A stretch of DNA of 39,298 nucleotides from Rhizobium sp. Q54 (GTDB taxonomy: Bacteria; Pseudomonadota; Alphaproteobacteria; UBA2966; CAIVPW01), in assembly GCA_945889645.1 (NCBI GenBank), contig CAMDCA010000017.1, positions 1 to 39,298 on the forward strand, given 5' to 3'. A program made the translations under genes and the position numbers. This document shows positions 838 through 8,299 of the stretch, piece after piece (position 1 is the stretch's first letter; every line of letters starts with the position of its first letter). The notes beneath the pieces were generated by a model. The model had not been told where the DNA came from, did not search any database, and was given only the letters and a program-made list of their open reading frames with translations.

Positions 838-3800
838 CTACACTGAGAAGTACTTCGCCTGTGGGTGCATGATCACCAGCGCTGACGTGGACTGCTCCGG
901 GTGGAGTTGGTCGCCCTCGCCGAGGCTCACGCCGATGCGTTCGGCGCCCAGCAGTTCCATCAGCTTGCGCTGGTCGGACAGGTTCGGGCACGCGGGGTAG
1001 CCGAACGAATAGCGGCTGCCGCGGTAGCCTTGGCGCAGCAGGTCTGGCATCGCCGGTGCGTCCTCAGCGCCGAAGCCGAGTTCGTGGCGGATGCGCTTGT
1101 GGACGTACTCGGCCAGCGCCTCGGTGATCTCGACGCCGAAGCCGTGCAGGTACAGATAGTCCTGGTAGCGATCCTGGGCGAACCACTCGCGCGCGACTTC
1201 GGACGCGTGCTGACCCACCGTCGCTAGTTGGATGCCGATGATGTCGCGTTCGCCGGACTTCACGTCCTTGACGAAGTCGGCGACGCACAGGCCGCCCGGC
1301 ACGTTCTGGCGCGGCAGCGTGAAGCGCGCGACCTCGGCCTTGTTCTCGCCGAACAGGATCAGGTCGTTGCCTTCGGCCGCGGCGTGCCAGTAGCCGTAGA
1401 TCGCCTTGGGATCGAGGATGCTCTCGCGCACACACTGCTCCGCGATGCGCGCGATGATCGGGCGCAATTCCTTTTGCGCCCAGACGTCGAAGTCCTCCTT
1501 CTTGCGGCCCTGCTTGCGATAGCCCCAGTGGAACTGGAACAGCATCGTTTCGTTCAGGTACGGCATCAGCGCCTTGAGGTTCACCTTCTCGATCATGCGC
1601 GGACCGAAGAACGGCGGCACCGGTACCGGCAGGTCGCGGTTGAGCTGGTCGCGGTGGACCTTGGTCTCCTCCATGTCCACCGGGCGCAGGTCGGCGGTCG
1701 CCGCCTGGCCCAGCTTCTTGGTGTTCTTCGGGCGGGCGGCGCGCTTGGCGCGGTTCTCCTGCAGGAACTCGTCGAACTTGCCGTCCATCACCTGGGCCAT
1801 CAGGCCAAGGCCGTCGAACGCGTCCTGGGCGTAGGCGACGCGGCCCGCGCCATACGCCGCTGTGCAGTCTTCCTCGACGTAGCCGCGCGTCAACGCGGCG
1901 CCGCCGAGCAGCACCGGCATCTCGAATCCGGCGCGAGTCATCTCCTCGAGATTCTCGCGCATGATGACGGTCGACTTCACCAATAGCCCCGACATGCCGA
2001 CGGCGTCGGCGGCGTGGGTCTTGGCGGCGTCCATGATGGTCTGGATCGGCTGCTTGATGCCGAGGTTAACCACCTTGTAGCCGTTGTTGGTCAGGATGAT
2101 GTCGACCAGGTTCTTGCCGATGTCGTGCACGTCGCCGCGCACGGTGGCGAGCACGATGGTGCCGCGCGCAGGGCCTTCGGCCTTCTCCATGTACGGCTGC
2201 AGGAATGCCACCGCGCCCTTCATGGTCTCGGCGGACGCCAGCACGAACGGCAGCTGCATCTTGCCCGAGCCGAACAGCTCGCCCACCACCTTCATGCCGT
2301 CGAGCAGGAAGGTGTTGATGATGTCGAGCGGCCTGTGTTTCTGCAGCGCCTCGGTGAGGTCGGCCTCCATGCCCTGGCGGTTGCCGTCGATGATGCGCTC
2401 CTTCAAGCGCACCTCAACCTGCTCCGACCGGACCTTGACCTTCTTCTCGACCGTACGGTCGCCGAACAGGCCGATGAATGCCTGCAGCGGGTCGTAGTCC
2501 TCGCGGCGGCGGTCATAGATCAGGTCCTCGGCGGCGATGCGCTCGTCTTCCGGAATCTTGTGCAGCGGCACGATGCGCGCGACGTGCACGATGGCGCCGG
2601 TCAGCCCGCGCTTCAGCGCGTGGTCCAGGTACACTGAGTTCAGCACGTGGCGCGCGGCCGGATTGAGGCCGAACGAAATGTTGGAGAGGCCGAGAATGAT
2701 CTGGCACTCCGGCAGCTCCTTGCTGATGCGCTCGATGCCCTCCAGGGTCCACAGGCCGAGCTTGCGATCGTCCTCGTTGCCCGTGCAGATCGTGAAGGTC
2801 AGCGGATCGAACAGCAGGTCCGCCGGCGGCAAGCCGTGCTTGTTCACCGCGAAGTCATACAGACGCTTCGCCACCGCGACCTTCTGGTCAACGGTCTTGG
2901 CCATGCCTTGCTCGTCGATGGTCAGCGCGATCACCGCGGCGCCGAACTTGCGGGCCAGCAGAAGGCGCTTGTGCGCCGGCTCCTCGCCGTCCTCGAAGTT
3001 GATCGAGTTGATGATCGCCTTGCCGCCGTAGAGGGCGAGCGAAGACTCGAGCACCGGGTATTCGGTCGAGTCCACCACCAGCGGCGCGCGCACGGCGCCG
3101 CGCATGCGGGTGATGACCTCGGTCATCTCCTTCACTTCGTCGTGGCCGACGTAGGCGCAGCACAGGTCGAGGGCGTTGCTGCCCTCCTTCTCCTGGTCCT
3201 TGCCCATGGCGACGCAAGCATCCCAGTCCTTGGCGTCCTGCAGCTCGCGAAACTTCTTGGAACCGTTGGCGTTGCAGCGCTCGCCGATCGACAGGTAGGC
3301 GTTTTCCTGGCGCAGCTCGACCTGGCCGTACAGCGAAGCGATCGACGGCACGTAGTGCACGCTGCGCTTCACCGGCGTCGGGCGGTACTTGAAGGCATTG
3401 CCGCCCGGCGTCTTGGCGCCGACGCGCTTTAGCATCTCGTCGATGGCGGAGATATGCGTGCCGACGGTGCCGCAGCAGCCGCCGACCATGGAGACGCCCT
3501 CCTCCACGACGAAGCGTTCCTGCCAACGCGCGATCTCCTCGGGCCCGAGCGGATAGTGCGTCTTGCCTTCGATCAGCTCGGGCAGGCCGGCGTTCGGCTG
3601 GACCGAGATGTGGCGGCGCCAATTGCGCGACAGCCAGCGCACATGGTCCGCCATCTCCTGCGGACCGGTGGCGCAGTTGAGGCCCATCGAATCAGCGCCC
3701 ATCGCGTCAACCACCGTGGCCGCCGCGGCGATGTCGGCACCAACCAGCAGCGTGCCGGTGGCCTCGACGGTCACCTGCACCAGGATCGGAATGTCCGCCT

Positions 3801-4341
3801 TGGCCTGCTCGCGCGCACGCTTGGCGCCGTTGATGGCGGCCTTGATCTGCAGCGGGTCCTGGCACGTCTCGATGAGGATCGCCGACGTGCCGCCGGCGAT
3901 CAGGCCAGAGCACTGGATCATCAGCGCGTCCTCCAGTTCCTGGTACTTGATGTGACCGAGGGTCGGCAGGCGCGTGCCGGGACCGACCGAGCCCAGCACG
4001 AAGCGCGTGCGGCCGTCGCCCTTGAACTGGTCGATAGCTTCGTTGGCGAGCTCGGCGGCGCGCTTGTTGATCTCGAACGCCTCGTCCTTGAGGCCGAACT
4101 CGCCCAGCGTAATGGGCGAGCCGCCGAACGAGTTGGTCTGCACCATGTCGGAGCCGGCCGCGAGGTACGTCGCGTGGATTTCGCGCACCAGGTCCGGGCG
4201 GCTCTTGTTCAGGATCTCGGTGCAGTTCTCTTGACCCAGGTAGTCGCGCTGCAAATCGAGATTGCGCGACTGCACCTGGGTGCCCATGGCGCCGTCGCAG
4301 AGCAGAACGCGCTGCGATAGGTGGTCAAGGAAGTTGCTCAT
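838..4341 (-). CDS. metH: Cobalamin-dependent methionine synthase
   Basis: Methyl transfer from 5-methyltetrahydrofolate to homocysteine via cobalamin; cytoplasmic. At 1167 residues it is close to the 1227 of E. coli MetH and has every module in order. The homocysteine-binding barrel occupies about 1-305, with zinc ligands C223 and C289/C290 (MVGGCCG). The pterin-binding barrel occupies about 345-620 and begins with GERCNANGS. A cap helical bundle follows at about 640-725. The B12 domain carries DVHDIGKN with the cobalt-ligating H739 and the SGLL and GGAA motifs. The C-terminal reactivation domain has RYSFGYPACPNL near the end. It is the last gene of a likely ArsR-MT/metF/metH unit, 353 bases beyond metF. 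The ATG at 4341 has a weak GGGGA 5 bases upstream and overlaps the TGA of an upstream ORF that repeats the first 18 residues of MetH, so translation may be coupled. The product call is very secure. Confidence 0.97.
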   Translation of the reverse strand: MSNFLDHLSQRVLLCDGAMGTQVQSRNLDLQRDYLGQENCTEILNKSRPDLVREIHATYLAAGSDMVQTNSFGGSPITLGEFGLKDEAFEINKRAAELANEAIDQFKGDGRTRFVLGSVGPGTRLPTLGHIKYQELEDALMIQCSGLIAGGTSAILIETCQDPLQIKAAINGAKRAREQAKADIPILVQVTVEATGTLLVGADIAAAATVVDAMGADSMGLNCATGPQEMADHVRWLSRNWRRHISVQPNAGLPELIEGKTHYPLGPEEIARWQERFVVEEGVSMVGGCCGTVGTHISAIDEMLKRVGAKTPGGNAFKYRPTPVKRSVHYVPSIASLYGQVELRQENAYLSIGERCNANGSKKFRELQDAKDWDACVAMGKDQEKEGSNALDLCCAYVGHDEVKEMTEVITRMRGAVRAPLVVDSTEYPVLESSLALYGGKAIINSINFEDGEEPAHKRLLLARKFGAAVIALTIDEQGMAKTVDQKVAVAKRLYDFAVNKHGLPPADLLFDPLTFTICTGNEDDRKLGLWTLEGIERISKELPECQIILGLSNISFGLNPAARHVLNSVYLDHALKRGLTGAIVHVARIVPLHKIPEDERIAAEDLIYDRRREDYDPLQAFIGLFGDRTVEKKVKVRSEQVEVRLKERIIDGNRQGMEADLTEALQKHRPLDIINTFLLDGMKVVGELFGSGKMQLPFVLASAETMKGAVAFLQPYMEKAEGPARGTIVLATVRGDVHDIGKNLVDIILTNNGYKVVNLGIKQPIQTIMDAAKTHAADAVGMSGLLVKSTVIMRENLEEMTRAGFEMPVLLGGAALTRGYVEEDCTAAYGAGRVAYAQDAFDGLGLMAQVMDGKFDEFLQENRAKRAARPKNTKKLGQAATADLRPVDMEETKVHRDQLNRDLPVPVPPFFGPRMIEKVNLKALMPYLNETMLFQFHWGYRKQGRKKEDFDVWAQKELRPIIARIAEQCVRESILDPKAIYGYWHAAAEGNDLILFGENKAEVARFTLPRQNVPGGLCVADFVKDVKSGERDIIGIQLATVGQHASEVAREWFAQDRYQDYLYLHGFGVEITEALAEYVHKRIRHELGFGAEDAPAMPDLLRQGYRGSRYSFGYPACPNLSDQRKLMELLGAERIGVSLGEGDQLHPEQSTSALVIMHPQAKYFSV

Positions 4342-4457
4342 GCGAGTCCCCGGCCGGCAACGGCGCCATTCTTCTTGATTTGTTCGGCGCGCCTACGGCG
4401 CAACGCGCCGTCGCAGAGCAGAACGCGCTGCGATAGGTGGTCAAGGAAGTTGCTCAT
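4338..4457 (-). CDS. Upstream ORF 1: 39-aa copy of the MetH N-terminus plus basic tail
   Basis: This ORF starts at the repeated metH ATG (4457). It encodes MSNFLDHLSQRVLLCDGA, then a basic, Arg-rich tail (LRRRRAEQIKKNGAVAGRGLA). Its TGA (4340-4338) overlaps the real metH ATG (4341-4339) as ATGA. A 4-base overlap of this kind is the classic arrangement for translational coupling, so this ORF could set the ribosome supply for metH. It has the same weak GGGGA element as metH. It may instead be a non-functional by-product of the tandem duplication; no homologue is known to me. Confidence 0.5.
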   Translation of the reverse strand: MSNFLDHLSQRVLLCDGALRRRRAEQIKKNGAVAGRGLA

Positions 4458-4573
4458 GCGAGTCCCCGGCCGGCAACGGCGCCATTCCTCTTGATTTGTT
4501 CGGCGCGCCGACGGCGCGACGCGCCGTCGCAGAGCAGAACGCGCTGCGAGAGGTGGTCGAGGAAATTGCTCAT
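4454..4573 (-). CDS. Upstream ORF 2: second 39-aa MetH-start copy
   Basis: This ORF starts at the outermost repeated ATG (4573). It encodes the same 18 MetH residues, then SRRRRAEQIKRNGAVAGRGLA, and ends in a TGA (4456-4454) that overlaps the ATG of upstream ORF 1 as ATGA. Its context upstream of the ATG differs from that of the inner copies (GAGCAGCCC before the ATG), so this may be the ancestral metH leader, with the inner 232 bp being the duplicated insertion. Compared with the next copy its peptide has only L19S and K29R changes. Whether it is translated cannot be told from sequence. Confidence 0.45.
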   Translation of the reverse strand: MSNFLDHLSQRVLLCDGASRRRRAEQIKRNGAVAGRGLA

Positions 4574-4600
4574 GGGCTGCTCGGTGACTTCCTTGCCAGC

Positions 4601-4672
4601 CTGGATTGCTTCGTCGCTGCGCTCCTCGCAATGACAACACGGTCATTGCAAGCCGAAGGCGAAGCAATCCAG
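4601..4672. repeat. Dispersed palindromic repeat, copy A
   Basis: A 72-base imperfect palindrome whose ends are CTGGATTGCTTCG and CGAAGCAATCCAG, with inner CTCGCAATGACA and GGTCATTGCAAGCC arms. The same element recurs at 8226-8299. Elements with the TCATTGCGAG...GCAATCC core are a well-known intergenic repeat family in many bacterial genomes. This copy lies between metF and metH, where the transcript could fold into a long hairpin that attenuates, protects or processes the message. Confidence 0.85.
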
Positions 4673-4694
4673 ATATATGGAGGGGGCTTCGTTT

Positions 4695-5591
4695 CTATCC
4701 AGTGGCGCTTGCCGCCATCGGCGTGGGCCGCTTTTTAGGCGGCCGCAGGCCGAGGATATGGCAAATCGAATACGTCAGCTCGGCGCGGTTCAGTGTGTAG
4801 AAGTGGAACTGCCGCACGCCGGCCTCGCACAGGTCCTGGCACTGGCGGATGGCGACGGCGGCCGCGACCTGCTTGCGCGTCTCCGGGTCCTCGTCGAGGC
4901 CCTCGAAGGCGTCGGCCAGCGACGGCGGGATGCTGGCGCCGCAGGTCTTGGAGAACTGCACGATCTTGGCAAAGTTGGTCACCGGCATGATGCCCGGCAC
5001 GATCGGCACGGTGATACCGGCCTTGCGCGCGCGCTCGAGGAACTCGAGGTAGTGCCGGTTGTCGAAGAAGAACTGGGTGATGGCGCGGGTCGCCCCGGCG
5101 TCGATCTTGCGCTTGAGGTTGTCGAGGTCGGCGCGGGCGCTGGCCGCCTCGGGGTGAACCTCGGGGTACGCCGCCACCGATAGCTCGAAATCGCCGACCT
5201 TGCGCAGGCCGCCCACAAGATCGGCGGCGAAGGCATAGCCGCCGGGGTGCGGCACGTACTTGCTCTGGCCTTCGGCCGGATCGCCGCGCAGGGCGACGAT
5301 GTGGCGGATGCCGGTCGCCCAGTACTCGTGCGCCACGGCATCCACCTCGGCGCGGGTGGCGCCGACGCAGGTCAGGTGCGCGGCGCTGCGCACGCCAGCT
5401 TCAGCTTGGATGCGGCGCACTAGCGAATGCGTGCGCTCGCGCGTGCTGCCGCCCGCACCATAGGTGACCGAGACAAACTTCGGCCCCAGCGGCGCCAGGC
5501 GTTGCACCGCCAGCCACAGTTGCTCGGTCATCTGCTCGGTCTTCGGCGGGAAGAACTCGAACGAGACGGAAAGATCGTTGGCGCGCGTCAT
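4695..5591 (-). CDS. metF: 5,10-methylenetetrahydrofolate reductase
   Basis: Reduces methylene-THF to 5-methyl-THF, the methyl donor for MetH; flavoenzyme, cytoplasmic. The product is 298 residues, the usual bacterial MetF length. The N-terminal strand has FEFFPPK (11-17, with the catalytic Glu at 12), followed by SVTYGAGGSTRERT, the TCVGATRAEV segment, ALRGDPAEG for flavin/folate binding, and the C-terminal FHFYTLNRAEL characteristic of the family. The ATG at 5591 overlaps the TGA of the upstream regulator gene (ATGA, 4 bases), so the two are cotranscribed and probably translationally coupled. The frame stays open far upstream of this ATG, but that stretch is an overlap with the regulator gene and has no MetF homology. 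Very secure. Confidence 0.96.
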   Translation of the reverse strand: MTRANDLSVSFEFFPPKTEQMTEQLWLAVQRLAPLGPKFVSVTYGAGGSTRERTHSLVRRIQAEAGVRSAAHLTCVGATRAEVDAVAHEYWATGIRHIVALRGDPAEGQSKYVPHPGGYAFAADLVGGLRKVGDFELSVAAYPEVHPEAASARADLDNLKRKIDAGATRAITQFFFDNRHYLEFLERARKAGITVPIVPGIMPVTNFAKIVQFSKTCGASIPPSLADAFEGLDEDPETRKQVAAAVAIRQCQDLCEAGVRQFHFYTLNRAELTYSICHILGLRPPKKRPTPMAASATG

Positions 5592-6550
5592 GCTGCGCTC
5601 CGTTCGGTGGCGGACTGCAGGGGCGCGTCGGCCGGCCACACCGTCACGGTCAACGGGTTGCCGGCCAGCACGATCGGCGGCGCCGGTTTGAGCCCTGCGC
5701 TCTCGAACCAAGCCGCGACTTCTTCGTGGGTGAAGCCGAGGCGGCGGTGGGCGTGCTCGTCGCGCAAAGCCTCCAGGCGATGCGGCGCAAAATCGACCAC
5801 CGCGACGCGGCCGCCCGGTGCCAGCACGCGCGCGGCTTCGCGAATCGCCGCCGCCGGCTCGTCGGCGTAGTGCAGCACCTGATGGATGCTGATGGCGTCC
5901 ACGGAACGCGGCGCCATGGGCAGGTGATACATGTCGCCGTGGCGCACCTGGAACTGGGCGCAGCCGGCTTGTTCCAACCGCGCGCGGGCGAGCGCCAGCA
6001 TCTCGCGCGACAGATCGATGCCGGTGCCGCGCTCGGCGCGTCCCTTGAACAACTCGAGAATGCGCCCGGTGCCGGTACCGATGTCGAGGAACTGGCGGAT
6101 CGAGCGGTTGGCGAATGCCGTCAGCAACGCGCGCTCGACCTCGGCCTCGGGCACATGCAGCGAACGAATCTCGTTCCAGTGTGCCGCATTGGCGCGGAAG
6201 TACTCCTCGGCGCGGTTCTGACGCGCCCGCTTGATGCCGGCAAGGCGGTCGATATCCTGTGCCAGCACCGGGTCGTCTTCCGCCATCAGGCGCGCCAAGG
6301 CACGGCTGAGGTCGAGCCCGCCGCCCTTCTCGGCCAGGCGATAGAACGCCCAGGTGCCTTCGGGGAAGCGGTCCAGCAGACCCGCGTCGCACAGCAATTT
6401 GAGATGGCGCGAAATGCGGGGCTGGCTCTGCCCCAGGATCTGCGTGAGTTCGCTCACGGTCAGCTCGCCGCGCGCGCACAAAGCCAGAAGGCGCAGCCGG
6501 GTTGGCTCGCCCGCGGCACGCAGTCCCGCCAGAAGTTCGTCGGTATGCAT
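5588..6550 (-). CDS. ArsR-family regulator fused to SAM-dependent methyltransferase
   Basis: 320 residues. Residues 1-80 form an ArsR/SmtB winged helix (TRLRLLALCARGELTVSELTQILG, then QPRISRHLKLLCDAGLL). There is no obvious metal-binding CxC motif. Residues about 115-320 form a class I methyltransferase with motif I LDIGTGTGRILELF (about 155-168), a following acidic GIDLS, and GGRVAVVDF. Such fusions are common next to met genes in alphaproteobacteria. ArsR-family repressors that sense S-adenosylhomocysteine or SAM are known for the methionine cycle, and by inference the methyltransferase fold here serves as a SAM/SAH sensor. The gene overlaps metF by 4 bases and is preceded immediately by a strong palindrome (6552-6585), so it probably represses its own operon. 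Alternatively it methylates an unknown substrate. Confidence 0.92.
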   Translation of the reverse strand: MHTDELLAGLRAAGEPTRLRLLALCARGELTVSELTQILGQSQPRISRHLKLLCDAGLLDRFPEGTWAFYRLAEKGGGLDLSRALARLMAEDDPVLAQDIDRLAGIKRARQNRAEEYFRANAAHWNEIRSLHVPEAEVERALLTAFANRSIRQFLDIGTGTGRILELFKGRAERGTGIDLSREMLALARARLEQAGCAQFQVRHGDMYHLPMAPRSVDAISIHQVLHYADEPAAAIREAARVLAPGGRVAVVDFAPHRLEALRDEHAHRRLGFTHEEVAAWFESAGLKPAPPIVLAGNPLTVTVWPADAPLQSATERSAA

Positions 6551-8225: not shown

Positions 8226-8299
8226 CTGGATTGTTCATCGCTGCGCTCCTCGCAATGACACCCTCGTTGTCATTGCGAGCCGAGGGCGAAGCAATCCAG
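8226..8299. repeat. Dispersed palindromic repeat, copy B
   Basis: A 74-base imperfect palindrome starting CTGGATTG and ending GAAGCAATCCAG. Its inner arms CTCGCAATGACA and TGTCATTGCGAG match perfectly. It is the same element as 4601-4672. It lies between the convergent ends of mlaC and ettA, 8 bases after the mlaC stop, where it could act as a bidirectional transcription end or an RNA-stabilising hairpin. Confidence 0.85.

Follow-up and report, generated by a model that had tools for sequence, protein, structure and literature searches.

Truncated copies of the metH start form a chain of candidate leader ORFs upstream of methionine synthase in an alphaproteobacterial family

Introduction

The stretch of Rhizobium sp. 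Q54 DNA analyzed here (39,298 nt, hereafter the window) raises the question of why the start of metH, encoding the cobalamin-dependent methionine synthase, stands three times in succession, and whether the two short ORFs formed in this way are leader ORFs maintained by selection or debris of recombination. Leader ORFs and coupled overlaps are in general well known. Leader ORFs that lie close to a gene have been proposed to increase its expression through reinitiation (PMC4833913), and termination-reinitiation requires overlaps or very short distances (PMC6728339, PMC10666635). A literature search missing most subscription journals found no report of leader ORFs that repeat the start of their own gene and keep its amino-acid sequence.

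Results

A repeat search of the window revealed a 116-nt unit in three copies in register, with spacings of 116 and 116 bp, bearing out the original prediction that the metH start is triplicated at exact 116-bp intervals. TRF agreed (period 116, 2.5 copies, 96% matches, score 530) and identified no other array of this kind in the window. On the minus strand the order is C1-L1-C2-L2-metH, and the features of the region are as follows.

838..4341, minus strand: metH, cobalamin-dependent methionine synthase, 1167 aa (TIGR02082, 1236.6 bits, cut-off 1010.85)
4341-4288, minus strand: C3, the metH-proximal copy, which is metH's own codons 1-18 and part of metH
4338..4457, minus strand: upstream ORF 2, 39 aa; its stop overlaps the metH ATG (ATGA)
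4342..4403, minus strand: L2, 62-nt tail, also the leader of metH; 3 differences from L1
4387..4403, minus strand: GC-rich hairpin TTGCGCC-GTA-GGCGCGC at the start of L2, of the same dispersed family as that of L1
4404..4457, minus strand: C2, the middle copy of metH codons 1-18, with 53 nt that match metH exactly
4454..4573, minus strand: upstream ORF 1, 39 aa; its stop overlaps the start of upstream ORF 2 (ATGA)
4458..4519, minus strand: L1, 62-nt tail, also the leader of C2
4503..4519, minus strand: GC-rich hairpin TCGCGCC-GTC-GGCGCGC at the start of L1, a member of a genus-wide dispersed family
4520..4573, minus strand: C1, the outermost copy of metH codons 1-18; 3 synonymous differences from C2 and 0 amino-acid changes
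4597..4673, minus strand: dispersed inverted-repeat element TCATTGCGAGGAGC...GAAGCAATCCAG, between metF and upstream ORF 1; 25 places reported in the genome
4695..5591, minus strand: metF, methylenetetrahydrofolate reductase, the gene upstream of the array (NCBIfam)

The two 39-codon ORFs are chained by ATGA into metH as predicted (4573..4454 and 4457..4338, then metH at 4341..838), and our comparison likewise reproduced the observation that C1 differs from both C2 and the metH start at three sites of the shared 54 bp, all synonymous. Two further claims stood in part. The leader had been described as repeated together with the start; three starts are present, but they alternate with the tails (start-tail-start-tail-start), so that the unit of leader plus start occurs only twice and no leader copy precedes the outermost start. 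The tails had been said to differ by two conservative-looking changes; two amino-acid changes do separate L1 from L2, along with one silent difference, but only R to K is conservative and S to L is not. An assembly artefact is unlikely, because related arrays of differing sequence stand in separately assembled genomes.

Related arrays were present in four of the eight genomes examined for the family, spread over two genera. The source genome of the window (G000) and a genome of another genus (G006) carry two upstream copies, each with spacings of 116 and 116 bp, and two congeners of G000 carry two copies at 123 and 123 bp (G002) or a single copy at 114 bp (G003). The array is absent from G001 and G004, which are close congeners of G000, and from G007 and G005. 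Each upstream copy comprises the metH start with its first 18 codons, a basic tail of 17-21 codons headed by the hairpin, and a stop on or 6 nt before the next start; the copy boundary always falls after metH codon 18 in all four arrays (CDGA, then S, or L instead in one copy). Since G003 groups with G002, and G000 with G001 and G004, in the MetH tree, the presence of the array is patchy, requiring losses or repeated gains. The family consists of uncultured aquatic bacteria; the public records of the relatives are metagenome assemblies, with isolate names that we interpret as lakes, a reservoir and two marine sites. The start copy was absent at all metH loci from outside the family (70-odd alphaproteobacterial loci; 80 were fetched including the family, two of them with <60 bp upstream), and a search for the ORF products in 385 genomes of the class, a draw that included just part of the family, recovered such ORFs in the source genome only.

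Analysis of start duplications in general showed that only metH and moaC stand out in ~650 kb of G000 plus the window, and that none stand out in 400 kb of G002. The moaC case in G000 is an 11-codon copy of the moaC start (MRKLTHLDDKG) that lies between trpC and moaC, is overlapped by trpC at a TGATG, and is joined to the same GC hairpin as the metH tails.

L177:970-1064 (G000 C8, trpC-moaC junction): moaC start-copy leader ORF, then GC hairpin, then moaC

At this site G001 has the hairpin alone, with no start copy, and G004, G002, G003 and G007 have neither; the presence of the hairpin in G001 and its absence from the closely related G004 are suggestive of mobility. The identities of moaC, metF and metH were confirmed by NCBIfam, trpC was named from reading its end, and the copied moaC start has too few codons for a test of selection.

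The hairpin occurs in all tail copies, with 97.2% of cells paired and a single pair in which both sides have changed. The short hairpin pieces fold with energies only weakly below those of shuffles, and the leader as a whole shows no unusual structure (z -0.42). Its strict pattern, GTYGCGCCNNNGGCGCG, is dispersed in excess in four of five congeners (12-35 matches versus 0-2 for the reversed control), G003 having 3 matches versus 3 for the control, and members of the family sit in both intergenic and coding DNA. The tail beyond the hairpin yielded no convincing further copies as a dispersed repeat. The dispersed form can be written GTCGCGCC-NNN-GGCGCG, with a loop that is often GNA and one coding frame that reads VAPEAR; it was recorded at many loci (L174-L189 and L217-L286) besides window:4503-4519 and 4387-4403, and is clustered in G001 C12 (locus L178) and G003 C90 (locus L225).

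Other repeats and genes surround the array. The inverted repeat TCATTGCGAGGAGC...GAAGCAATCCAG has a second copy in the window at 8226-8299 and differs from the GC hairpin family, and in G002 the gap between metF and the first copy holds another repeat-like stretch, CTTCGACAAGCTCAGGACGAG and its inverse (locus L157, about 3970-4060). Upstream of metF, an ORF at 5588-6550 resembles, by reading of its sequence, a fused ArsR-type regulator and SAM-dependent methyltransferase. A riboswitch-controlled metH leader was considered and rejected, as neither the window nor the metF-metH regions of seven relatives had an Rfam match to a known riboswitch (SAH, SAM or cobalamin).

The distance from each upstream stop to the next start is −4 nt in G000 and G006 and +6 nt in G002 and G003, the anatomy of a coupled leader ORF. 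Every metH in the family begins ATGAGC or ATGAGT, and the ATGA overlap is mostly automatic, because metH begins ATGAG and an open frame that enters it at 3n+2 spacing therefore meets TGA; a fraction of 0.58-0.96 of shuffled 62-nt tails ended within −4 to +6 nt of the start. We thus rejected ATGA coupling as evidence of selection by itself. In G002 and G003, where the spacings of 123 and 114 bp are in frame, a TAG lies 6 nt before the next ATG, a position that shuffled tails gave at fractions of 0.032 and 0.013, respectively. The closeness of stop and next start therefore recurs by another route in the in-frame congeners. The proposed selection on ATGA coupling is accordingly weakened by the automatic overlap at 116 bp and retains some support from the rare TAG at +6 in two congeners. 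In G006, an overlap of the metF stop with the first upstream start takes the chain back to metF, but coupling to metF is not general, because ~120 nt containing a dispersed repeat intervene between metF and the first ORF in G000.

Comparison of the upstream copies across the four genomes revealed a codon pattern that points to selection. The original prediction had argued for selection from the three synonymous differences within one genome, an argument that is weak because C2 was recently derived from metH. Among the four outermost copies, variable sites at codon positions 1/2/3 numbered 4/3/14 (17 sites each), as compared with 6/0/17 among eight metH genes, and the outer copy compared with its own metH gave dS values of 0.32, 0.48, 0.75 and 0.73 and dN values of 0, 0.03, 0.10 and 0.08. 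In simulations of a neutral copy beside a constrained metH, conditioned on the observed synonymous count, no more than 0.25% of runs for any genome produced as few amino-acid changes as observed; the upstream copies fit an acceptance rate near 0.1. The substitutions include Arg replacements at hydrophobic or core positions (L8R, L13R and C15R), and the tails showed no peptide-level constraint within a genome.

Codon models, which like the other selection tests rest on 17 codons per copy, gave results that depended on the assumed history of the copies. With one old origin, omega for the upstream copies was 0.028 (lnL −286.1 versus −311.9 at omega=1, a doubled difference of ~52), and with branch times tied, so that copy and gene have had equal time, it was 0.022 (lnL −286.3 versus −308.1, a doubled difference of ~44). 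With a separate origin in each genome and untied branches, omega=1 was not rejected (lnL −283.3 versus −283.5); this case would correspond to copies younger than their divergence from metH would suggest, for example through import from another lineage. Comparison of one with several origins was not decisive with only 17 codons. Beyond the hairpin, however, the tails are alike between species (G002-G003, z 5.3; G000-G006, z 3.1), and this likeness, together with the identical cut after codon 18, favors an old common origin. In sum, third-position divergence over four genomes and rejection of neutrality under two of the three models favor the proposal of selection rather than neutral debris, and separate origins with free branch times do not; we consider selection on the upstream copies the more probable interpretation, short of proof.

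Discussion

The best explanation we can offer is that the array may consist of selected, translated leader ORFs, derived from a duplicated metH start, that feed ribosomes into metH, a proposal that we regard as evenly balanced between right and wrong. Based on the codon pattern, the part copied from metH is likely to be under long-term selection at the amino-acid level and the ORFs are hence likely to be translated. With less certainty, the stop-start distances (PMC6728339, PMC10666635) suggest that ribosomes initiating at the first ORF would end at the next start and restart there, such that the chain would meter delivery into metH. Also with less certainty, the amino-acid conservation suggests that the metH-like N-terminus of the peptide may contribute, whether as a nascent chain acting in cis or in trans. 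In the three of the four genomes that have two upstream copies, the second would be a later duplication of the tail-plus-start unit. Counting against this explanation, half of the family, including two close congeners, lacks the array, the upstream copies bear the Arg replacements noted above, and the ATGA overlap is largely automatic.

A possible but rather unlikely alternative is recombination debris: truncated metH starts would have been left upstream when the metF-metH junction underwent tandem duplication or illegitimate exchange, often with a mobile GC hairpin involved. Constraint would then be only apparent, the copies being recent images of real metH starts, in part those of another lineage, renewed by unequal crossing-over. 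Consistent with such debris, C2 is nearly identical to metH and C1 is older, L1 and L2 are alike within each genome, the junction hairpin is dispersed in the genus and also joins the moaC start copy, and neutrality is not rejected by the codon model that allows separate origins and free branch times. The end of the G006 tail also resembles the end of metF (13 nt, p 0.001), which is what a tandem duplication of the metF-metH junction would leave. Nevertheless, neutrality is rejected if copy and gene are of the same age, the cross-species similarity of the tails and the identical codon-18 cut favor an old common origin under which it is also rejected, and no reset by gene conversion is visible in G003 and G006, where dS is 0.75 and 0.73.

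Two other explanations appear improbable. Changes in copy number within a population could alter metH translation in the manner of phase variation, as might be expected from the 0, 1 or 2 upstream copies of closely related species and from direct repeats with identical stretches of ~80 bp, which favor RecA-dependent or slippage change; we think this improbable given that C1 and C2 have stood apart for long enough to diverge and that upstream copies number exactly two in three of the four arrays. Slightly more improbable still is an RNA element, composed of the hairpin and the repeated start, that acts on mRNA stability or a regulator and to which the peptide is irrelevant. The retention of the paired hairpin in all copies would fit such an element, but variation in the start copies lies mostly at third codon positions, fitting a peptide and not an RNA, the whole leader is no more structured than usual, the hairpin family is found all over the genome, and no Rfam family matches the leaders.

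The proposed leader ORFs of metH share features with three known systems. Like leader ORFs that feed ribosomes by reinitiation (Korolev et al. 2016, PMC4833913; the iraD leader ORF, PMC5574718), they are short, lie directly upstream of the gene and have their stop on or near its start, but they differ in that they copy the start of their own gene, are repeated, and appear conserved as amino acids in the copied part. Overlapping gene pairs with termination-reinitiation coupling through ATGA or TGATG (PMC6728339, PMC10666635) resemble the ATGA of G000 and G006, in two genera, and the TGATG of trpC and the moaC start copy; in contrast, the metH units all derive from a single gene by truncation, and two species have them spaced at +6 nt without overlap. 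Finally, the ~17-20 nt GC hairpin, which is dispersed in the genus and present at every start-copy junction, recalls small palindromic mobile elements capable of inserting in genes as well, such as the Rickettsia palindromic elements and other small repeats (PMC2229807), although it is much shorter and is found where a duplicated gene start is joined.

A bolder and doubtful extension is that metH would be governed by truncated versions of its own N-terminus: metH-like peptides, nascent or free and encoded by the one or two upstream copies, would regulate MetH synthesis, in an arrangement long kept in the family and built recurrently, also at moaC, by way of a small hairpin element. Judging from the moaC case, small hairpins together with duplicated starts may offer a general route to new leader ORFs. 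If the selection signal holds, close relatives with 0, 1 or 2 copies would constitute a natural experiment on how reinitiation chains set methionine synthase output.
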